A stretch of 37,184 nt of DNA. Source: Bacteroidaceae bacterium. GTDB lineage: Bacteria; Bacteroidota; Bacteroidia; Bacteroidales; Bacteroidaceae. The notes beneath the pieces are model-generated. The model was not told where the DNA came from, did not search any database, and saw only the letters and a list, made by a program, of their open reading frames with translations. Where the stretch lies: NCBI GenBank assembly GCA_017536765.1, contig JAFXGV010000078.1:1-37184 (forward strand). Reading direction: 5' to 3'. Below, one piece after another: positions 26,324 to 34,862 of the stretch (positions are counted from its first letter, which is position 1; every line of letters begins with the position of its first letter). A program made the position numbers and the translations under genes.

Positions 26324-28225
26324 TTACATATTCACCTCCACAATCTTTGCAAAATTGTTCCAGCCTAACGTGTTTTCATACACACGCTTGGCACCGCGCG
26401 GAACATAAAGCACACATTTGCTGCCAATGTTTTCGAAACAGCCGCTGCCTGTGGCAGTGAGCCTGTCGGCAGGTATGCGCGAAACCACCTTTTGCAAATT
26501 GCTGCAATCCTTGAAAGCATATGCCTCAATCTCCTCTACGCCACTGCCTATGGTTACGGCTTGCAGGCTTTTGCTGTTAGTGAAAGCCTCTGCCCCTATG
26601 AATGTTACGCTGTCGGGGATAACAACCTCCTGCAGGCCGCACACACCAAAAGCCTTTTCTTCAATGCGGGTAAGCCCCTTGGGCAGTTTCACACTCTGCA
26701 TATTAGCGCAATAAAAGAAACAGTAAGGGCCTATCTCTGTAATGCCATCGGGTATGTGAATGGTGTTGAATCTGCAGGTGTAGAATGCTCCCTCTCCCAA
26801 TGCTGTTATCTGCTCCGGTATTACAAAACTCTCCTCAAGCCACATGGCATAGGCATAGGGACCTATGGCGGTTACATCGTCGGGTATAACGGTGTTCTTG
26901 CAGGTGGCCACAATGGTGTTTGTTGCGGTCTCTATTATGGCGTTGCAGCCATTGCGGCTGTCGTATGTGGGGTTCTCTTCATCTACTGTAAAGCCATCAA
27001 TTGAGGCATGCCCTATGTAGTTCCACCCATCTATCTCCTTTACCGTTTTGGGAATGTATATTGTGCCTGTAATGCGGCAGGTGCCAAAGGCATTCTCTTT
27101 TATGGTTTCCAGCCCCTCGGGTAATATTATGCTTGTAGTTTCGGGGTTGTCAAATGCATACATCCCAATAGCAGTAACGCGGAATGTACGCCCGCGGTAG
27201 GTAACCTTGGGTGGAATCACTATGGTTCCGTCGTTGTATTCGCATTCGTACTCCTCGTGATAATTGCCTTTGTAAGTAACCTCTACCGTGCGTGCATCAA
27301 AATCTGTTATCTGGTAGTGTATGCCGTTTACCTCAAATTTATATGCTATTTCCCCTGTTTCCCACGCTATGTAGTTGTCTATAGCTCGATACAGTTGCAC
27401 TGCACCAAATGTAACTGCTATTGCTGCAGCCGCAGCAATGAAGATGCCAAGCGCGCGCTTTCTGGCGTTTGGTTGCAACTGTGTAATAATATCGTCAACG
27501 CTTTGATAGCGTTTCTCTTTTTGTGGTTCCAGGCAACGCCTTTTAATCTTTTGTGCAAAGCGCGGGAGTCTCTTCCCTTGCAAAGCCGCGTTCTCAATGA
27601 ATTGCAGCAGCGAACCGATGGCATATATATCGGTGCGTGCGTCAATCTCCTTGCTGTTGCCAATAGTGGTTTCGGGTGCTGTGTATTTGGCAGTGCTGCC
27701 GGGTGTGCTGTCGTTGTAGTTGCTAAGGCAGAAACCCAAGTCCACCAGTTTTATATCGTTGCTTGCCTGTTCTATGAGAATGTTGTTGGGGCTGAGGTCG
27801 AGGTGCACCACATTATCCTTGTGCAGTGCCTTCAGTGCATAGCACAGCTGCAGCAACAGCTTGTGAATATTCTTCTTGTACAAAAAATATTTGGGTTCCC
27901 TGCGGCTCTTCTCTTTAAGCGTTGCGCCATTGACATACTCCATAAGAATGTATATTCCGTGAGTGTCCTCCCGTAAATCTATGTATTTGACCACATAGGG
28001 GCTTTTTATGCCGCAGCCGCTGTGATACTCCTTTATGAATGCCTCGCGGCAGTGCTTGTCGTTTTGCAGTTCGGGGCGCAGTTGCTTCATAAAATAGGCG
28101 CGCCCGTCTATGCATAGCTTGTAGGCAAGCGATGTGGAGCCGCTGTCGTCGAGCAGTTCAATATCGCTAACATTGTCTATATATAAAAAATCGGAATTTG
28201 TAGAATTATCCACGTTCACAGCCAT
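26324..28225 (-). CDS. Membrane Ser/Thr kinase with C-terminal BspA-type leucine-rich repeats
   Basis: The 633-residue protein has three parts. Residues ~20-250 are a eukaryotic-like (Hanks) kinase with Lys47 in YFMKQL, the hinge ILMEYVNGATL, the catalytic loop HLDLSPNN (Asp143, Asn148), VDLG instead of DFG (Asp162), APE at 184-186 and Asp199. The glycine loop (DDSGSTSLAYK) is atypical. The loop has no Arg before the catalytic Asp, so it is a non-RD kinase. Residues ~258-280 are a membrane helix (Ala/Ile-rich). From ~295 an ectodomain opens YKFEVNGIHYQI, passes through VTYKGNY and VTYRG, and continues as about ten BspA-type (LRR_5) repeats with A-F and I-LPEG patterns. The kinase should be cytoplasmic and the repeats periplasmic. 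It is coupled by a one-base overlap to the upstream gene. The ectodomain resembles the start of the divergent 1808-residue protein. Confidence 0.9.
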   Translation of the reverse strand: MAVNVDNSTNSDFLYIDNVSDIELLDDSGSTSLAYKLCIDGRAYFMKQLRPELQNDKHCREAFIKEYHSGCGIKSPYVVKYIDLREDTHGIYILMEYVNGATLKEKSRREPKYFLYKKNIHKLLLQLCYALKALHKDNVVHLDLSPNNILIEQASNDIKLVDLGFCLSNYNDSTPGSTAKYTAPETTIGNSKEIDARTDIYAIGSLLQFIENAALQGKRLPRFAQKIKRRCLEPQKEKRYQSVDDIITQLQPNARKRALGIFIAAAAAIAVTFGAVQLYRAIDNYIAWETGEIAYKFEVNGIHYQITDFDARTVEVTYKGNYHEEYECEYNDGTIVIPPKVTYRGRTFRVTAIGMYAFDNPETTSIILPEGLETIKENAFGTCRITGTIYIPKTVKEIDGWNYIGHASIDGFTVDEENPTYDSRNGCNAIIETATNTIVATCKNTVIPDDVTAIGPYAYAMWLEESFVIPEQITALGEGAFYTCRFNTIHIPDGITEIGPYCFFYCANMQSVKLPKGLTRIEEKAFGVCGLQEVVIPDSVTFIGAEAFTNSKSLQAVTIGSGVEEIEAYAFKDCSNLQKVVSRIPADRLTATGSGCFENIGSKCVLYVPRGAKRVYENTLGWNNFAKIVEVNM

Positions 28226-28803
28226 TATAGAAGTTGGAATTTTACACCGCCTTTTTTACCACAGATATAGTTTACCGGCTCCCCATTGTTGTGAATGAGG
28301 TTCGATAGCAACAACGGAGAATTTTCAATTATTCGTTCACAAATGAAGGTATCATCCTTGCACAGCTTGCTGTTGATGCTCTCCACCACCTTGAACATGC
28401 AAAGCCCTATGTATTGTATCGTTAAACAACGGCCGGGGTTCCACATGAGCCTCAATCTGTCCCCTTTTAACAACGACCTTGTTTGCAGGCTGTTGTTGTG
28501 CAGAAAGGCGCTCTCGCACTCCGCATCCGTGCAGTGCAGTTTGCAGAATGTCTCAAAATCGGGGTAGCCCACATATTGCGACATTATGTTCAGCGTGTTT
28601 ATTCGTGGCCTTTGCTCCTCCTTTTCCACCAAGTATCCCCAGAATCGTTTGATGGTTGTGGGCGATATCATCTGCTTGGTGTTTTCGAATATGTTTGTTG
28701 CAAGAGCATCAAAATCGCGTGGTGTGCGCAGTTTGTAGCCGCAGATATTCTCAATACTCTCCTTTAGCTTCTCCGTGTATGTGCCTGTTGCAGTATTCTC
28801 CAT
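28225..28803 (-). CDS. Unnamed protein with a possible regulatory N-terminal domain, coupled to the kinase
   Basis: This 192-residue cytosolic protein has no signal peptide. The first ~95 residues contain ISPTTIKRFWGYLVEKEE and then PRINTLNIMSQYVGYPDFE. In my reading this is a Bacteroidetes-wide helical motif (S-xx-T-L-K-R-x-W-G, PR-xx-T-L, x-YxGY-x-D-F-xx-F) seen at the start of various signalling and repeat proteins and possibly DNA-binding. The rest (~100 residues: QTRSLLKGDRLRLMWNPGR and onwards) is unrecognised, with a small beta-rich look. Its TAA stop shares a base with the kinase ATG, so the pair is translated together. It could be the kinase's substrate, a transcription factor, or an adaptor; I cannot choose. 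Confidence 0.75.
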   Translation of the reverse strand: MENTATGTYTEKLKESIENICGYKLRTPRDFDALATNIFENTKQMISPTTIKRFWGYLVEKEEQRPRINTLNIMSQYVGYPDFETFCKLHCTDAECESAFLHNNSLQTRSLLKGDRLRLMWNPGRCLTIQYIGLCMFKVVESINSKLCKDDTFICERIIENSPLLLSNLIHNNGEPVNYICGKKGGVKFQLL

Positions 28804-28832
28804 TTTATCGTGCCGTTCTCAATGTTTTGTGT

Positions 28833-28866
28833 GCGAAGATAGCAAATTAAATTATAAAATCTTCGC
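28833..28866. promoter_or_regulatory. Inverted repeat at the kinase-operon promoter
   Basis: GCGAAGAT (28833-28840) and ATCTTCGC (28859-28866) form an 8-bp inverted repeat with an 18-bp AT-rich spacer. On the minus strand the left arm contains TATCTTCG (28834-28841), a near match to the -7 box TAnnTTTG, 31 bp before the coupled gene pair. The symmetry with a 26-bp centre-to-centre distance could be an operator or simply two back-to-back -7-like boxes. No clear -33 TTTG is found for the minus promoter. Confidence 0.45.
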
Positions 28867-28890
28867 TATATCTATCCGCAAACCCCATAA

Positions 28891-28907
28891 GGACCAAAAT
28901 GGACCAA
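28891..28907. repeat. Two direct repeats GGACCAA in the divergent promoter region
   Basis: GGACCAA occurs at 28891-28897 and 28901-28907, spaced 10 bp start to start, which is one turn of the helix. On the minus strand it reads TTGGTCC twice, about 50-65 bp upstream of the putative -7 box of the kinase operon. The arrangement resembles a tandem binding site for a regulator. It is only two copies, so chance cannot be excluded. Confidence 0.35.
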
Positions 28908-29013
28908 GTGCGAACGGGGTAAAATGTTTTAATTTGCAAAAAACTACTATAATGGCTATGGAGTGCGATGGATAATATTCTCCTTGCCGTGGTACAAAAA
29001 TCACTAAAATATT

Positions 29014-29190
29014 ATGAAAGTAAAAGAACTGTATCATCGTTGTAAACCCCGCAAAATCCCGTGTGGCAAGCGGGATTTACCTGTGCCGGAAACCGGTTGT
29101 GGTACCAAGCCTGCTTGTGCTTTCCCCAATCTTGCAGCTATTGTAAACGATTATATATTAAAGAAAGCTGCACAAGCGGCAAATCCCTAA
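29014..29190 (+). CDS. Possible small Cys-rich peptide gene (58 residues)
   Basis: An uninterrupted ATG-to-TAA frame encodes 58 residues, basic in the first half with four cysteines (residues 10, 17, 29, 35; spacings C-x6-C-x11-C-x5-C) and a helical C-terminal half (AAIVNDYILKKAAQAA). It has no signal peptide. The region 28804-29235 contains no other gene. Codon choice looks like the neighbours (TGT, AAA, CCC, GCA). It lies 45 bp before the large BspA gene in the same orientation and could share its transcript. No Shine-Dalgarno or confident promoter is seen. I do not recognise the family; the frame may be chance. Confidence 0.35.
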   Translation: MKVKELYHRCKPRKIPCGKRDLPVPETGCGTKPACAFPNLAAIVNDYILKKAAQAANP

Positions 29191-29235
29191 TTTGCACAAA
29201 TAATGTAGAATATTAACAAAATTATATATAATACA

Positions 29236-32200
29236 ATGAAGCGTTTTTACATTAAAAATTTGCTTGCAGCTATGCTATTGCTGTGCTGCACAATTGTAAG
29301 TGCCCACGAATTTGAGGTGGGTGGTATTTTCTACAACATTACCTCTTCAAGTGATTTAACCGTGGAGGTAACTTATAAAGGGAATTATCCTAACTCCTAT
29401 AATGAATATAGTGGTGATGTTTTTATACCCGCAACAGTAACCTATAGCTCAAAAACTTACAAGGTAGCAGCTATTGGGCTCAATGCGTTCAATGATTGCA
29501 CCGGCCTTACAAGCATTGAAATCCCGAGCGGCGTAACAACTATTGGAGAGTCTGCGTTCATTCGTTGCACCCGCCTCACAAGTGTAACAATCCCCAATAG
29601 CGTAACAACTATTGGAGACGGGGCGTTCTATAAATGCACAGGCCTCACAAGTGTTACAATTGGCAACAGCGTAACTACTATTGGAGACGATGCGTTCCGT
29701 GATTGCACCGGCCTTACAAGCATTGAAATCCCGAGCAGCGTAACAACTATTGGAAGCGGTGCATTTAGGAATTGTAGCAGCCTTTCGGCGGTATATATAA
29801 ACGACCTTGCTGCTTGGATTGGAGTGGATTTTGGTGATTCATATTCCAACCCGTTGTATTATGCAAAGGAGATATATTTAAATGGGACTTTACTGAAACA
29901 AATTGTTATTCCTGAAGGCGTGGAAGAAATACCGGCAGGTCTTTTTCGTGGAATTGAATTTTACAGCGTTACAATCCCCAGTACCGTTCTTTACATTGGA
30001 GAATATGCATTTTCCAATGTAACGAAGATGATAATTTTGGGAAATACACGTATAAGGCTTGCCGAGGGCAGCGACGAATTCTATGTTCCCGCAGCCAAGC
30101 GAGTTTATGTATCTTCTTTTGCAACGCATCAATTCGGTATAGAATACCCGCTTTTGAGTTCTCTCTTTGAGGTTGGTGGTGCCAAGTATGTACTCACAAG
30201 CACGGCAAACAGAACTTGTAATGTAATTGATTGTAATTACGACAATAGTGCTGTTGATGTTGCGGTGGACAGCATTGTTGCATACAAAGGCATTGCGCTG
30301 ACAGTGAAGGATATAGAACCTTATTCTTTCTACAAGAACGATTCAATAAAAAGTGTTTATATAAATAACGACGGTTATGTGGGTAATTCTGCTTTTTACC
30401 AATGTGCAGGAATAAATTCCGACGTTGTGGTGAAAAATAACGGTTATGTAGGTGAACACGCATTTTATCAATCATCTTTAACCGGTTTGAATATTTCAAA
30501 TAATGGCTATATAGGCAATCAAGCTTTCTACGACTGCCCTAAGATGAATTCCGAGGTTACGGTAAGCAATAAGGGTTATGTAGGTGAATATGCATTCAGC
30601 AAATCTACACTCACCGGTTTGAATATTTCAAATGATGGTGAAATAAGAACATCTGCTTTCCGGGGGTGTACCGCTCTTGCTGCTGCCGATATTTCAAATA
30701 ACGATTATATAGGTACATCGGCCTTCCAAGGGTGCACCGCTCTTGCAACACTCAATTTTGGCGAAAATGTGGGCGCGTTCTACGATTCGGCATTTCGCGA
30801 TTGCACATCATTGCCCAATATTGTAATCCCCGATTTTACGCCCTTTGTTGGAGCTTCCTGTTTCCGAAATTGCAGTTCACTTGCTTCGGCAGTGGTTGGT
30901 ATGTCTGTAAAAAAACTTAATGAGAGTGTCTTCCAAAGCTGTATATCTTTGACCAATGTTTCAATTGGTGTGAATGTCGATACTATCAAACACTCTGTAT
31001 TCTACGACTGTAGATCGTTGCCCAAGATAAATATTCTCCCAAAAGTAGAAAGCATTGGCGATTCTGTTTTTTATGCTTGCACCAGCCTTAGAACCGTGAT
31101 ATTTGAAGATAACATCGTAAACGACACTATATCCTTGGGCAGCGATGGCGAGAGTCCTATGTTTAGCAGTTGCCCGCTCGATACGGTATATATAGGTAGG
31201 AGGTTGTTATATTCAACAGAATCATCAGCCGGTTATTCACCTTTCTATGAAAATGCAACTTTAAGAAGCGTACATTATGGCAACCGTGAGGTTGCAATTT
31301 ACCCCAAAGAGTATATGAACTGCACCAATTTGCAGAACGTATTAATTGGAAACGGAATAAATATTATTGATGATGAGGCCTTCCAAAACTGTACCTCGTT
31401 GCCAACAATTCTTATTCCAAACACAGTAGATAAGCCTTTGGGCGCAAGCTCTTTTAAAAACTGTTCAGCACTCTACAAAGCAGTTATAGGCGATAGTGTG
31501 GCATCTATTGGACAAAGTGCATTTGAAAGTTGTGTTTCTCTTGTCGATGTAAAGGTGGGTGCAAGAGTCTCCGATATATATGCATCAGCCTTTAAGAATT
31601 GCAGCTCATTGCCACAGATAACAATTCCGCAAGCAACAAATAGCATAAAAGACTATGTATTCGATGATTGTGCGAAGCTTAAATACTTCTTCTTGGAAGA
31701 TGGCCCCAATGCTATCTCTCTTGGAAAAAATGCCGCAACAGAATTAACAAATGTCATAGGCTCCGAATGTCCATTATTCTATGACTGCGCCCTCGATTCG
31801 ATATACCTTGGCCGAAACCTCTCTTACAGCCTCAAATTGGAAGATGGTTATTCGCCCTTCTATTTCAATAAAACATTGCGTGCTGTTGTTATAGGCGACC
31901 AAGCAACCTCGGTACACGAAAATGAGTTCTACAAGTGCCAGCAACTTAAATATGTTTCTGTGGGTAATGGTGTTACCGCAATAGGTAACTGGGCCTTCAG
32001 CGGTTGTATAAGCCTCGACCACTTCTTGTTCGGTGAAGGCCTTGAAACAATAGGCAAAGAGGCTTTCAGCGACTGCACCGCAGTAACAAAGATTGTAGGT
32101 AATCGCCCCGTTCCACCTGTTTGTGGCGAGCAGGCTCTTGTCGATATCAATGTGTTCAATTGTACACTTTATGTCCCCACAGCCAATGTAAGCGCATACC

Positions 32201-34662
32201 AGGCAGCCGAGCAATGGAAAGATTTCTTCTTTGTGGAGGGTACCGAAAAGACCTATACTCTGCAGTATGTAATAGACGGCGAGGTGTATGCAACATACAA
32301 CCTTGTTGAGGGTGCTGCAATAGAGCAGCCCGCAGCTCCCACCCGCGACGGCTATACCTTCAGCGGCTGGAGCGAGATTCCCGCAACTATGCCTGCAGGC
32401 GATGTAACCATCACCGGCTCGTTCACATTGGTAACCTATGCTTTGAACTTTGTTGTCGATGGCGAGGTATATACTACAACTGCAATGGCTGCCGGCAGTG
32501 CAATAGAGTTGCCCGCAGCTCCAGCAAAAGAGGGCTATGAATTCATTGGCTGGGCAAAGGCCGACGCTGTCGTTAATGCTTCGAATGCCGATGCAGTGCT
32601 CTACACCAATGCTCCTTGTACAGAAACCCTGTATGGCGACCAATTCACAAGCTGGAATGTGCTGTTCGATGGGCTGGCTTCAACCTTCTTCCACTCGGAG
32701 TATGCCGAAAAAGAGAGTGCCGACGGCCTCGACCACTACCTGCGCGTGGATATGGGCGAGGGTAACTCGGTTACATACTTTACATTTACATATACCAACC
32801 GTAACACGAATAGTGTTTACTATGCTCCCAAAGTAATTGTTGTAGAGGGCTCTAACAGTGCCAATGGCGAGTATGAAGAGATTGTAACATTGAGCGGCCT
32901 CTCTAATGTCAATTCTTTTGTATATAACTCTCCTAAAATTGGTAATGGTACAGCATACCGTTATATACGTTACCGTGTAACAGAGACGCAGTACAACAAA
33001 AAGGTGTATAACCACCCCTATTTCCATATAGGAGAGTTCGGTATGACCGATGTTGAACTTCCCACTACAATGCCGGCAAAAGATGTTACATTGGTTGCTT
33101 CATATAAATGCGTATCAGGCCCTTGTGGCGATAATGCTACTTGGTCGTTTGCCGATGGTGTGCTCACTATCAGCGGTAGCGGAGCTATGTATGATTATGA
33201 AGGAAATGATACACCTTGGAATAGTTATCGTTTTACCGATATTACCTCAGTTGTTGTAGAGGAGGGTATAACACATATTGGTAACAGTGCTTTCCGTGGC
33301 TTCGAGGTTGCAACAATTGCAACATTGCCCTCTACCTTAACAAGTATTGGCGTGCGTTCATTTGGTGGAAGCCGCAACATAAGAGTGAGTATCCCTGCAA
33401 ATGTAGAGAGTATAGGAGACAATGCATTCAATGGTTGTACAGGATTGACAGGTGAGTTGTCTATAACTTCTGTAACAAACATTGGCTATCAAGCATTCTT
33501 GAGTTGTTCCGGTATTACGAGCGTAAACCTCTCCGACAACCTTGAAACTATCGGATATGGTGCATTCAGCCGCACAGGCCTCACCAGCGTAACGATTCCC
33601 GAAGGTGTTACAACAATTCCTGCGTGGGCATTTGACAATTGTTCTGCACTCACAACGGTGTCATTCCCTTCTACCCTTGCCACTATAGATAACTATGCAT
33701 TTGAAAATTGCGCCGCGCTCACAAGCATTACAGTGGCAAATGCCACACCTGCCACATTGGGCGAGAGCGTGTTCAATGGCATTGGCAGCGATGCAACACT
33801 TTATGTTCCCGCCGGTTCAAAGGCTGCATACGAAGCCGACGAAAATTGGAACGTTATTCCTAATATTGTGGAGCTTGTAAATAAATATCAAATAACCTAC
33901 ATTGTCGATGGCGAGGTTTATGCTACCGAGGAGATAGTAGAAGGCAGCAGAATGACACCTATCGATGCTCCCGAGAAAGAGCTCTATGAGTTTGTAGAGT
34001 GGACAGGCCTGCCCACCACAATGCCTGCCGAGAATATTGAGGTTGATGCAAGCTACAAGCAGGTTGCAGTTTCTATAACAATCAACAAGTATGGCTCTGC
34101 CACATACGCATCTCCCTATGCACTCGACTTTAGCGAGGTTGGTGGCCTTACTGCGTATGCTGCAACCGGTTACAATACCTATACAGGCATAATAACAATG
34201 ACCAAGTTGAATACAGCCCATGAGGGTGTGGGCCTCTTCCTGAACGGTACTCCCAATACCACATATGTGGTTCCTATTATGGAAGACACAGGCGACAACA
34301 CATTGAACCTTATGGTTGGAGTTTTGGCAAAAACCACAGTAAACCAGACAACCGACGATGGTTTGTATGTGAACTTTAAATACACCGTTGCCAGCGGCAG
34401 CACAACACCGATGTTCTATCGTTACAGCAATGGTTCAAGCGTATCTGCCGGCAAAGCATACTTGCAATTGCCACAATCTTGGTTGCCCTCCGATGCATCA
34501 TTTGCAATAGGTATAAGATTTGAAGACGGTTTTGCAACCGACATCGACGAGGTGGAGACCGATGCAGAAGAGGTAATATACTACGACCTTAACGGCCTTC
34601 GCGTGCAAGAGCCTGTCAAAGGTGTAGTTTATATAGTAAATGGTAAAAAGGTAATATTTTAA
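29236..34662 (+). CDS. Very large secreted BspA-like leucine-rich-repeat protein
   Basis: The protein has 1808 residues. A signal peptide (about 1-23, MKRFYIKNLL then LLLCCTIVSAH) is followed by an opening module FEVGGIFYNIT, VTYKGNY and VTYSSKTYKVAAIGLNAF, like the neighbouring kinase's ectodomain. A long BspA-type LRR block (~80-1000) contains near-identical 23-residue repeats (LTSVTIPNSVTTIGDGAF) and a variant set with NNGYVG. Then come Listeria/Bacteroides (Flg_new-like) repeats at ~1004-1062, ~1064-1290 (split by an inserted coagulation-factor-like domain at ~1100-1270) and ~1550-1611. A second LRR block lies at ~1310-1545. A C-terminal beta-rich region (~1612-1780) ends in DLNGLRVQEP, then YIVNGKKVIF. 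BspA-like proteins of Bacteroidales bind host proteins such as fibronectin (family knowledge), so an adhesin or surface scaffold role is likely. A 60-codon gene follows after 17 bp. Confidence 0.9.
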   Translation: MKRFYIKNLLAAMLLLCCTIVSAHEFEVGGIFYNITSSSDLTVEVTYKGNYPNSYNEYSGDVFIPATVTYSSKTYKVAAIGLNAFNDCTGLTSIEIPSGVTTIGESAFIRCTRLTSVTIPNSVTTIGDGAFYKCTGLTSVTIGNSVTTIGDDAFRDCTGLTSIEIPSSVTTIGSGAFRNCSSLSAVYINDLAAWIGVDFGDSYSNPLYYAKEIYLNGTLLKQIVIPEGVEEIPAGLFRGIEFYSVTIPSTVLYIGEYAFSNVTKMIILGNTRIRLAEGSDEFYVPAAKRVYVSSFATHQFGIEYPLLSSLFEVGGAKYVLTSTANRTCNVIDCNYDNSAVDVAVDSIVAYKGIALTVKDIEPYSFYKNDSIKSVYINNDGYVGNSAFYQCAGINSDVVVKNNGYVGEHAFYQSSLTGLNISNNGYIGNQAFYDCPKMNSEVTVSNKGYVGEYAFSKSTLTGLNISNDGEIRTSAFRGCTALAAADISNNDYIGTSAFQGCTALATLNFGENVGAFYDSAFRDCTSLPNIVIPDFTPFVGASCFRNCSSLASAVVGMSVKKLNESVFQSCISLTNVSIGVNVDTIKHSVFYDCRSLPKINILPKVESIGDSVFYACTSLRTVIFEDNIVNDTISLGSDGESPMFSSCPLDTVYIGRRLLYSTESSAGYSPFYENATLRSVHYGNREVAIYPKEYMNCTNLQNVLIGNGINIIDDEAFQNCTSLPTILIPNTVDKPLGASSFKNCSALYKAVIGDSVASIGQSAFESCVSLVDVKVGARVSDIYASAFKNCSSLPQITIPQATNSIKDYVFDDCAKLKYFFLEDGPNAISLGKNAATELTNVIGSECPLFYDCALDSIYLGRNLSYSLKLEDGYSPFYFNKTLRAVVIGDQATSVHENEFYKCQQLKYVSVGNGVTAIGNWAFSGCISLDHFLFGEGLETIGKEAFSDCTAVTKIVGNRPVPPVCGEQALVDINVFNCTLYVPTANVSAYQAAEQWKDFFFVEGTEKTYTLQYVIDGEVYATYNLVEGAAIEQPAAPTRDGYTFSGWSEIPATMPAGDVTITGSFTLVTYALNFVVDGEVYTTTAMAAGSAIELPAAPAKEGYEFIGWAKADAVVNASNADAVLYTNAPCTETLYGDQFTSWNVLFDGLASTFFHSEYAEKESADGLDHYLRVDMGEGNSVTYFTFTYTNRNTNSVYYAPKVIVVEGSNSANGEYEEIVTLSGLSNVNSFVYNSPKIGNGTAYRYIRYRVTETQYNKKVYNHPYFHIGEFGMTDVELPTTMPAKDVTLVASYKCVSGPCGDNATWSFADGVLTISGSGAMYDYEGNDTPWNSYRFTDITSVVVEEGITHIGNSAFRGFEVATIATLPSTLTSIGVRSFGGSRNIRVSIPANVESIGDNAFNGCTGLTGELSITSVTNIGYQAFLSCSGITSVNLSDNLETIGYGAFSRTGLTSVTIPEGVTTIPAWAFDNCSALTTVSFPSTLATIDNYAFENCAALTSITVANATPATLGESVFNGIGSDATLYVPAGSKAAYEADENWNVIPNIVELVNKYQITYIVDGEVYATEEIVEGSRMTPIDAPEKELYEFVEWTGLPTTMPAENIEVDASYKQVAVSITINKYGSATYASPYALDFSEVGGLTAYAATGYNTYTGIITMTKLNTAHEGVGLFLNGTPNTTYVVPIMEDTGDNTLNLMVGVLAKTTVNQTTDDGLYVNFKYTVASGSTTPMFYRYSNGSSVSAGKAYLQLPQSWLPSDASFAIGIRFEDGFATDIDEVETDAEEVIYYDLNGLRVQEPVKGVVYIVNGKKVIF
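29497..29772 (+). repeat. Four tandem 69-bp DNA repeats inside the BspA gene
   Basis: Units begin at 29497, 29566, 29635 and 29704 (TGCACCGGCCTTACAAGC or near copies), each coding one 23-residue leucine-rich repeat with GTAACAACTATTGGAGA(C/G). The first and fourth units are almost identical at DNA level, including the segment ATTGAAATCCCGAGC. This looks like recent unit duplication or gene conversion and could expand or contract by slippage. Confidence 0.85.
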
Positions 34663-34679
34663 ATAAAAAGTAATAAATT

Positions 34680-34862
34680 ATGAGAAAGAATTATTTGGAA
34701 CCCGAAACTGAGTATGTTAAATTGGTTGTAGGCCCCATAATGCAGATTGTTGAAGGCTCTACATGGACCGGTACCGGTACCGGAGATGGTGAAGTAGGTG
34801 ATGACACCGAGGAACTCTCCAATAGAAGAAACGGTGAGTGGGGCAATCTTTGGAAGAAATAA
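34680..34862 (+). CDS. Small unrecognised Bacteroidales-type peptide gene (60 residues)
   Basis: The ATG is 17 bp after the BspA gene. The product starts MRKNYLEPETEYVKLVV, has a Thr/Gly repeat (STWTGTGTGDGEVGDD), and ends NRRNGEWGNLWKK. I recall short Bacteroidales proteins that begin M-(K/R)-K-x-Y-xx-P-E-x-E and carry a Gly/Asp centre and an RR...W end, often beside secreted proteins, but I cannot name a family. No signal peptide is present. The same-strand placement and the terminator 20 bp after the stop indicate a two-gene unit with BspA. It could be a chaperone-like or peptide-precursor companion; function is unknown. Confidence 0.65.
   Translation: MRKNYLEPETEYVKLVVGPIMQIVEGSTWTGTGTGDGEVGDDTEELSNRRNGEWGNLWKK

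Follow-up and report, generated by a model that had tools for sequence, protein, structure and literature searches.

The window, a 37,184-nucleotide stretch from the genome of a Bacteroidaceae bacterium, carries a divergent locus of three genes (Table 1). On one strand, the gene for a putative regulator (P) runs into that for a membrane kinase (K), the end of the first and the start of the second overlapping by one base; facing them is the gene for a very large, secreted BspA-type leucine-rich repeat (LRR) protein. An earlier note on this DNA had described these genes, and all three are present with the sizes and divergent layout it gave, except that its end point, 34862, lies 200 bp beyond the stop of the BspA gene. 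A paralogous P–kinase pair sits on contig 28 of the same genome, with no LRR neighbour within the 19.9-kb stretch around it.

Table 1 Genes and regulatory features of the divergent locus
Feature	Position	Strand	Details
K kinase gene, 633 aa	26324..28225	-	Open reading frame, Pfam, AlphaFold2 model
P gene, 192-aa putative regulator	28225..28803	-	Five-helix N-terminal domain, variable linker, C-terminal beta barrel
-7 element TATCTTCGC of the P–K operon	28833..28841	-	45 nt from operator edge
Operator, direct repeat TTGGTCCATTTTGGTCCTTAT, period 10	28887..28907	-	Upstream of P
Possible divergent -7 element TAATTTGC	28930..28937	+	Faces BspA gene; 22 nt from operator edge
58-aa open frame in BspA gene leader	29014..29190	+	Putative frame only
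BspA-type LRR protein gene, 1808 aa, secreted	29236..34662	+	Signal-peptide-like start, 10 LRR_5 stretches, Flg_new repeats

K consists of a Hanks-type kinase domain (residues about 28–250), a membrane helix (about 254–290) and a BspA-type LRR ectodomain (about 295–633). This order, which the earlier note had proposed, is borne out by Pfam matches to Pkinase (residues 28–207, E 3e-29, 102.5 bits against a cut-off of 31.7) and, in the ectodomain, to LRR_5 (E 2e-51, 173.5 bits against 27.7), and by an AlphaFold2 model (pLDDT 89.5) that places the kinase, a single helix (254–290) and an LRR solenoid in succession. Since K crosses the inner membrane once and the cell is Gram-negative, its LRRs would face the periplasm and not the cell surface. 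The closest PDB match of the kinase domain is 1o6y (E 7e-12), and the Hanks-type catalytic set of Lys, Glu, HxD, Asn, DxG and APE is complete in K. Across 37 aligned kinases, K47, E66, D143, N148, D162, G164, P184 and E185 are invariant, as is H135, and the His of HxD (H141 in the window) varies. The Gly-rich loop GxGxxG is absent or degenerate, reading DDSGSTSLAY in K and ESSTAFTY in the paralogue. As far as the sequence tells, then, the kinase domain does not appear inactive, despite the degenerate Gly-rich loop. Neither K nor P matched a histidine kinase or receiver domain in Pfam, which argues against a classical two-component system.

P comprises a five-helix N-terminal domain, with Thr49 in predicted helix 3, a linker containing a conserved Ser98 and a C-terminal beta barrel. 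The family is unannotated and mostly adjoins such kinases: a kinase lies within 1.5 kb of 75 of 84 P frames at P-selected loci, these loci being the best 80 of 422. Among 130 P proteins accompanied by a kinase, 128 keep Ser98 although the linker around it varies, and so do 9 of the 11 P genes with no kinase nearby; this serine is a candidate phosphosite at which K may phosphorylate P. Cultured commensals carry P as well: in Segatella copri iA622 (locus L212) it adjoins a kinase that lacks LRRs, and in Parabacteroides distasonis An897 (locus L224) no kinase is close by. Comparison of P with Pfam, NCBIfam and PDB sequences gave nothing below E 0.001 (best 0.0097, 0.013 and 0.1), nor did a Foldseek comparison of its structure with PDB and viral folds. 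Scans of 56 members returned scattered weak matches only; MtrA, a response regulator, was among them, with 3 members matching at E 0.083 or above. We therefore do not assign P to a known helix–turn–helix transcription-factor family, and the case for DNA binding by P rests on covariation.

The 432-bp intergenic region between the two transcription units contains the direct repeat, the first 17 bp of which have no second exact match anywhere in the genome. A period-10 direct repeat stands upstream of P in 35 of 54 LRR-kinase systems; in shuffles its frequency was 124 of 2780, and in other upstream regions 57 of 854. These counts, like the others drawn from relatives, overstate significance because the pattern was defined after these sequences had been viewed, the P-selected loci were the best 80 of 422 and the relatives are not independent. 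In the form searched, the repeat is missing from 19 of the 54 LRR-kinase systems; systems with other kinases carry it in only 13 of 70 cases, and P systems with no kinase in 6 of 11, so it is not an operator universal to P systems. When the search did not require equality, the half-sites still carried an identical middle base in 56 of 61 repeats.

Promoter elements flank the operator on either side, in helical register with it. The offsets of the P-side -7 elements fall within 33–36, 43–46 or 54–57 in 41 of 47 cases (R 0.78), and of the 54 loci with the repeat, 26 have a full divergent -7 element at 20, 21 or 31 from the operator, where 0.19 would be expected. The -7 consensus quoted in PMC7366714 is TAnnTTTG, of which the window's divergent element falls one base short. 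A second copy of TAATTTGC occurs at 29188–29195, immediately 5′ of the BspA gene, and could be part of that gene's real promoter. The proposal that a divergent promoter region links the two halves of the locus is thus supported by a repeat phased with -7 elements in both directions. Elsewhere in the same genome, two gene pairs that include LRR_5 proteins (C9 and C82) are preceded by GGTTC repeats with -7 elements at 56 and 55; these repeats stand before the first gene of each pair, farther than 400 bp from the LRR frame. Within 400 bp on the gene's own strand, no equal-base repeat was found for 16 other LRR frames of this genome with upstream sequence; for one of these, of 183 aa, the opposite strand shows an unrelated GTGC match.

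The identity of P residue 49 follows the variable base of the repeat: Thr occurs with C, Ser, Ile or Val with T, and Met with A. This residue has the top z (19) among 187 columns of the P alignment; it differs in all 26 pairs with discordant bases and in only 3 of 24 concordant pairs, and all eight tree contrasts fit the rule. The paralogous P of the same genome has Ser49. Among 24 fresh P genes, only four gave a repeat with a prediction, three of which fit and one did not, so that outside this clade the rule appears to hold in three of four cases and is little tested. Since residue 49 tracks the variable base, P very probably binds the repeat and is probably a previously unrecognised DNA-binding protein. 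The regulatory role that the earlier note had ascribed to the 192-aa protein from its N terminus agrees with this covariation, the upstream operator and the phased promoter elements.

The link between kinase, regulator and BspA gene is further supported by the conserved neighbourhood. Among dereplicated relatives, a divergent BspA or LRR gene lies within 2 kb of 18 of 43 kinases with BspA-type ectodomains; none of 292 control genes has one, and of 65 related kinases that lack LRRs 6 do. The kinase–BspA neighbourhood is thus conserved in a good part of the relatives, and 25 of the 43 systems have no divergent LRR gene. Close kinases face quite different BspA genes, and other proteins in other species: between the window and locus L068, the kinases are 82% identical and the BspA proteins 33%, and the divergent gene encodes a subtilase at locus L082 and an AAA protein at L087. 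The BspA gene would therefore be a replaceable output.

In the window the BspA protein has ten LRR_5 stretches (582.9 bits against a cut-off of 27.7, Pfam). Its C-terminal tail, VYIVNGKKVIF, resembles a T9SS sorting domain by eye, and no sorting-domain profile matched; the genome encodes the T9SS core protein SprA (2682 bits), the T9SS component searched for. The earlier note had pointed to an opening module shared by this protein and the K ectodomain. The likeness is real (54% identity, E 2e-18, the top of 8 non-kinase matches in the genome at E <0.001), but the same module recurs in the C5 (50%), C82, C61, C16, C3, C76 and C32 frames and in a second kinase; it is thus the common BspA N-cap and does not single out this pair. 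The similar endings of the two LRR blocks are likewise not specific to the pair, their core V608, P609 and Y616 being invariant in the 37 aligned kinases. Over 20 pairs, the kinase's own neighbour had a mean rank of 10.6 of 20 for the whole ectodomain (p 0.62; chance 10.5) and 11.05 of 20 for the N-cap (p 0.87). An ectodomain is thus no more like its own neighbour than the BspA proteins of other systems, and co-evolution of the two left no signal.

Taken together, these data suggest that K and P are probably the receptor and switch for the giant surface protein. We favour, with moderate confidence, a receptor-kinase/transcription-factor pair whose divergent target is the BspA gene, with P acting on both promoters. 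K would be anchored in the inner membrane, its LRR solenoid facing the periplasm and its kinase the cytoplasm. In response to a periplasmic signal, K would phosphorylate P; the simplest target would be Ser98, in the linker that joins the helical and barrel domains. As the covariation strongly suggests, helix 3 of P would bind the 10-bp direct repeat between the transcription units, and in each half-site residue 49 would recognise the base that varies. From there P would act on its own operon and on the BspA gene. Activation is the likeliest mode, given the helical phasing between the repeat and the -7 elements; P may thus activate the BspA gene.

The same operator could instead serve repression, with phosphorylation by K releasing P so that both units switch on. 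Shared operators are typical of autorepressors, and in 21 relatives the operator edge lies 20–21 bp from the divergent -7 element, a position from which a bound protein could obstruct polymerase. Yet the P-side sites fall into three distance classes spaced by one helical turn, which fits contact with polymerase better than steric block, and a block is less likely from a site 54–57 nt upstream of the -7 element; we consider repression somewhat unlikely. It is improbable that P and K govern their own operon only, the BspA gene being a bystander in an island of surface-gene exchange. The divergence of BspA genes facing similar kinases, the subtilase and AAA neighbours and the co-directional orientation of the first upstream gene in 10 of 52 systems would suit such a bystander, but not the excess of divergent LRR genes over controls, the divergent -7 elements at fixed operator distances or the P-type repeats in register before two unlinked LRR_5 gene pairs of the same genome.

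Two further readings turn on what the ectodomain binds. The earlier note had suggested, from the shared module, that it monitors, or competes for, a ligand or partner of the BspA protein. In the window the neighbour's N-cap is indeed the best match of the 20, and the best of 8 in the genome, but for the whole ectodomain this neighbour ranks 11 of 20, the module is common and ranks over all pairs are those of chance; with no pair-specific similarity, a shared ligand lacks sequence support and is highly improbable. Alternatively, the ectodomain might bind BspA protein in transit to the T9SS, K and P tuning BspA expression to export flux. Ectodomain and cargo share a fold, SprA is encoded in the genome and the divergent gene is often an LRR gene, but the lack of pair-specific similarity and the divergent subtilase and other genes make such feedback quite unlikely.

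How gut Bacteroidota choose which of their many BspA-type surface proteins to make is, to our knowledge, not described, and a search of open-licence papers returned no account of it. The locus offers a concrete candidate circuit, with an operator, an unannotated protein family, a one-residue specificity rule and a candidate phosphosite. For the wider proposition we see the balance as even: that the Bacteroidaceae have expanded two-gene Ser/Thr-kinase receptor channels, in which a variable ectodomain is joined to a new DNA-binding family with a one-residue code (Thr, Ser/Ile/Val, Met and Tyr at position 49 for C, T, A and G) and exchangeable surface-protein outputs. As each P would read its own operator through essentially one residue, the channels would be insulated within one cell. 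If true, a Ser/Thr counterpart of two-component signalling would have multiplied within a single bacterial family.

Plant LRR receptor kinases have LRRs outside, one membrane helix and the kinase inside; K differs in its reverse chain order and its BspA-type LRR_5 repeats, and the likeness would reflect convergence and not kinship. In Mycobacterium, the membrane Ser/Thr kinase PknH phosphorylates its cognate DNA-binding regulator EmbR. K–P resembles that system in pairing a membrane Ser/Thr kinase with a putative transcription factor, whereas P has no Pfam match and so no FHA or OmpR-type domain, the K ectodomain is of BspA-type LRRs and the operator lies between divergent units. PknS–EcfK of Xanthomonas citri is likewise described as a transmembrane Hanks kinase whose target is its own transcription initiator; that initiator, EcfK, is an ECF sigma factor, and P is unlike any Pfam sigma family. 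The same literature search found no published account of a kinase–membrane helix–LRR protein with P. PMC1262709 refers to a kinase with LRRs in Pseudomonas aeruginosa, and one of its table rows is for B. thetaiotaomicron; PMC7159879 appears unrelated to this architecture. K has its kinase fold in common with PknB-type PASTA kinases (NF033483, PDB 1o6y) but has no PASTA repeats in Pfam and scores only 104 bits against the NF033483 cut-off of 450. Its ectodomain has the solenoid of BspA-type LRR proteins (PF13306; PDB 4gt6, 4fs7), in K joined through a membrane helix to a kinase.

The linkage of P (the 192-aa putative regulator), K (the 633-aa membrane kinase with a BspA-type leucine-rich repeat (LRR) ectodomain) and a divergent gene, an operator between them, the register of that operator with the promoters and the covariation of P residue 49 with the operator are supported computationally. 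The window is contig C75; its genome measures 2.36 Mb and is 91% complete. Domain searches assign K a protein kinase domain and LRR_5 repeats, and its AlphaFold2 model (pLDDT 89.5) comprises the kinase, a single long helix (254–290) and an LRR solenoid; its top PDB matches include PknB (1o6y) and BspA-type LRR proteins (4gt6, 4fs7). Across 37 aligned relatives the catalytic residues are invariant, the His of HxD excepted, and the Gly-rich loop is degenerate. P has no Pfam or NCBIfam match below E 0.001; in its AlphaFold2 model (pLDDT 91.5) a beta barrel follows a helical domain. The 1,808-aa BspA-type protein carries ten LRR_5 stretches and its start resembles a signal peptide. The genome also encodes the T9SS protein SprA, and the tail of the convergent beta-galactosidase-like protein looks T9SS-like by eye. 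The end of a 58-aa frame before the BspA gene weakly resembles (E 0.37) that of a 250-aa protein in the same place in two relatives' loci (L071, L153).

Features of the locus and of related sites
Feature	Position	Strand	Remarks
Beta-galactosidase-like protein, 1,407 aa	22040–26263		convergent with K gene; Glyco_hydro_2 and ricin-type lectin domains
K gene, 633 aa	26324–28225	minus	directly after P gene
P gene, 192 aa	28225–28803	minus	upstream of K gene; 1-base overlap
Operator repeat	28887–28907
58-aa frame	29014–29190		contains Cys; between divergent promoter and BspA gene
BspA gene, 1,808 aa	29236–34662	plus
C9 GGTTC site	C9:9011–9030 (L234 ~4529)		upstream of co-directional pair: 528-aa, then 828-aa LRR frame
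C82 GGTTC site			upstream of co-directional pair: 390-aa secreted, then 1,195-aa BspA frame
C28 GGTTC site	C28:20011–20030 (L251 ~3014)		before UvrA-like gene (by eye); off-consensus TATATTGA at 54
Tandem kinases (two)	L097 8048–10300		behind single P gene; second without ectodomain
P-like protein, 210 aa	L037 (contig C70) 4453–5085		distant; divergent from next row
Kinase protein, 909 aa	L037 5612–8341		kinase domain C-terminal

The P family is present in 92 of 251 sampled genomes of the window's family (16 of 30 genera), and kinases of the K type in 79 of the 251. Across the phylum, 15 of 296 genomes gave a match, the window's own counted; in the remaining 14 genomes the matches reached no further than positions 4–110 of P and were mostly part of longer reading frames. 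Among matches listed, in a search that may have excluded the window's own genome, the closest named relative was a Bacteroidaceae MAG from roe deer caecum (P 94% identical). A genome scan with P as the sole selection criterion gave 422 relatives; in the best 80 of these 422 loci a kinase lay within 1.5 kb of 75 of 84 P frames. These 80 loci, 80 stretches surrounding the stronger among 105 kinase hits from other genomes, the window and a contig-28 stretch held 165 P systems, or 141 once P proteins more than 95% identical were removed.

The earlier note's expectation that such kinases neighbour BspA-type genes above chance held. Counting genes up to 2 kb upstream of P in loci reaching that far, a divergent LRR gene accompanied 18 of 43 LRR-kinase systems (13 of 31 in the P-selected set alone) versus none of 292 control genes taken from the same loci at distances above 4 kb. 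It was found in 1 of 3 systems with a broken LRR kinase and in 1 of 10 kinase-less ones. Where the kinase frame lacks LRRs the figure was 6 of 65, and two of these six (L089, L093) have seemingly truncated or frameshifted kinase frames. The output slot of LRR-kinase systems is variable: in 42 of 52 the nearest gene upstream is divergently oriented, and in 27 its product is signal-peptide-like by our own heuristic; others encode a subtilase, a Big_2 protein or an AAA protein. A paralogous P–K pair on contig 28 had no LRR neighbour within the stretch fetched. Some LRR-kinase systems (L154, L151) lie opposite Sel1-repeat-like proteins (by eye), others opposite lipoproteins or a subtilase. One locus (L097) has tandem kinases, and in the window genome the L037 genes are a further, diverged pair.

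It had also been proposed that K and its BspA neighbour share an opening module that might reflect a common ligand or partner. The similarity stands (54%), but not as a mark of the pair: searched against the whole genome (E <0.001), the module matched K itself, a second kinase and eight non-kinase places, namely the neighbour, C5 (50%), C82, C61, C16, C3, C76 and C32. It is thus the general BspA N-cap. Nor were ectodomains closer to their own BspA protein than to others; among 20 kinase–BspA pairs, each from a different system, the own neighbour had a mean rank, out of 20, of 10.6 by whole ectodomain and 11.05 by N-cap, in line with chance. For K these ranks were 11 and 1, respectively. Turnover is seen among related loci: between the window and L068 the kinases are 82% identical and the BspA proteins 33% (the latter cut by a contig end in L068), and between the window and L073 the values are 44% and 57%.

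Enriched words upstream of P resolved by k-mer counting to a direct repeat, xGTnC, with a period of mostly 10. It occurs in 35 of 54 LRR-kinase, 2 of 4 broken-LRR-kinase, 13 of 70 other-kinase and 6 of 11 kinase-less systems. The two controls, counted on both strands, gave 124 of 2,780 for shuffled sequences and 57 of 854 for regions upstream of other frames. When the search left the middle base of the half-site free, it was identical in both copies in 56 of 61 cases. The -7 element (consensus TAnnTTTG, quoted in PMC7366714) lies 33–36, 43–46 or 54–57 from the repeat on the P side in 41 of 47 cases and 20, 21 or 31 on the divergent side in 26 of 30 (26 of 54 loci, versus 0.19 in shuffles), a concentration on one helical face of R 0.78 and 0.85, respectively, for a 10.5-bp period. 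As the sequences are related to each other, these figures overstate independence. In the window the P-side -7 is at offset 45 and the divergent -7 is one base off consensus; the 17-bp operator core has a single exact copy in the genome.

The middle base of the operator covaries with residue 49 of P. In the 53 systems where this base is C, T or A, residue 49 was T for C-operators (22 of 23), S, I or V for T-operators (24 of 25) and M for A-operators (all five); the lone G-operator had Y. With z = 19.1 it was the highest of 187 P columns (runner-up 13.0). In disjoint pairs it differed in 26 of 26 with unlike operator bases and in 3 of 24 with like bases and below 60% identity, and on a tree made without residues 44–66 its states were disjoint in 8 of 8 independent contrasts. 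Residue 49 lies near the beginning of helix 3 (48–55) of the model, and P very probably reads the middle base through it. The rule holds within the clade around the window; outside, 24 new P genes fetched later included only four with a repeat and a prediction, of which three agreed and one (L279) did not.

We propose that K spans the inner membrane, exposing its LRRs to the periplasm, and would phosphorylate P, which may activate both transcription units. Ser98 is the candidate phosphoacceptor: among 130 P proteins accompanied by a kinase, 128 have it, within a linker that is otherwise variable. The residue is likewise conserved in 9 of the 11 P proteins that have no kinase nearby, so the phosphosite reading is weaker or the kinase is distant. 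Neither part of K, its Hanks-type kinase or its BspA-type LRR ectodomain, is novel by itself, and dedicated pairs of a Hanks kinase and a regulator are known, such as PknH–EmbR and PknS–EcfK. A search of open-licence papers found no account of the kinase–P–BspA arrangement.

The contig-28 P paralogue aligns a Ser at position 49 and therefore predicts GGTTC repeats. The genome holds four such sites besides the window, versus one for the reversed pattern. At those on C9 and C82 a -7 lies 56 and 55 nt away, matching the P-side register, and both sites stand before gene pairs that include LRR_5 proteins; the C37 site had no -7. Scanning 187 kb of own-genome stretches, picked mainly around LRR genes and so not giving a genome-wide rate, yielded three composite sites (window, C9 and C82), whereas shuffled sets averaged 0.2 at equal score and 0.7 at any score. 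The C9 and C28 sites also share a longer flank of similar sequence, AACTTTTTCAAAAATTTCA on the plus strand, as though both had been copied from a single regulatory element.
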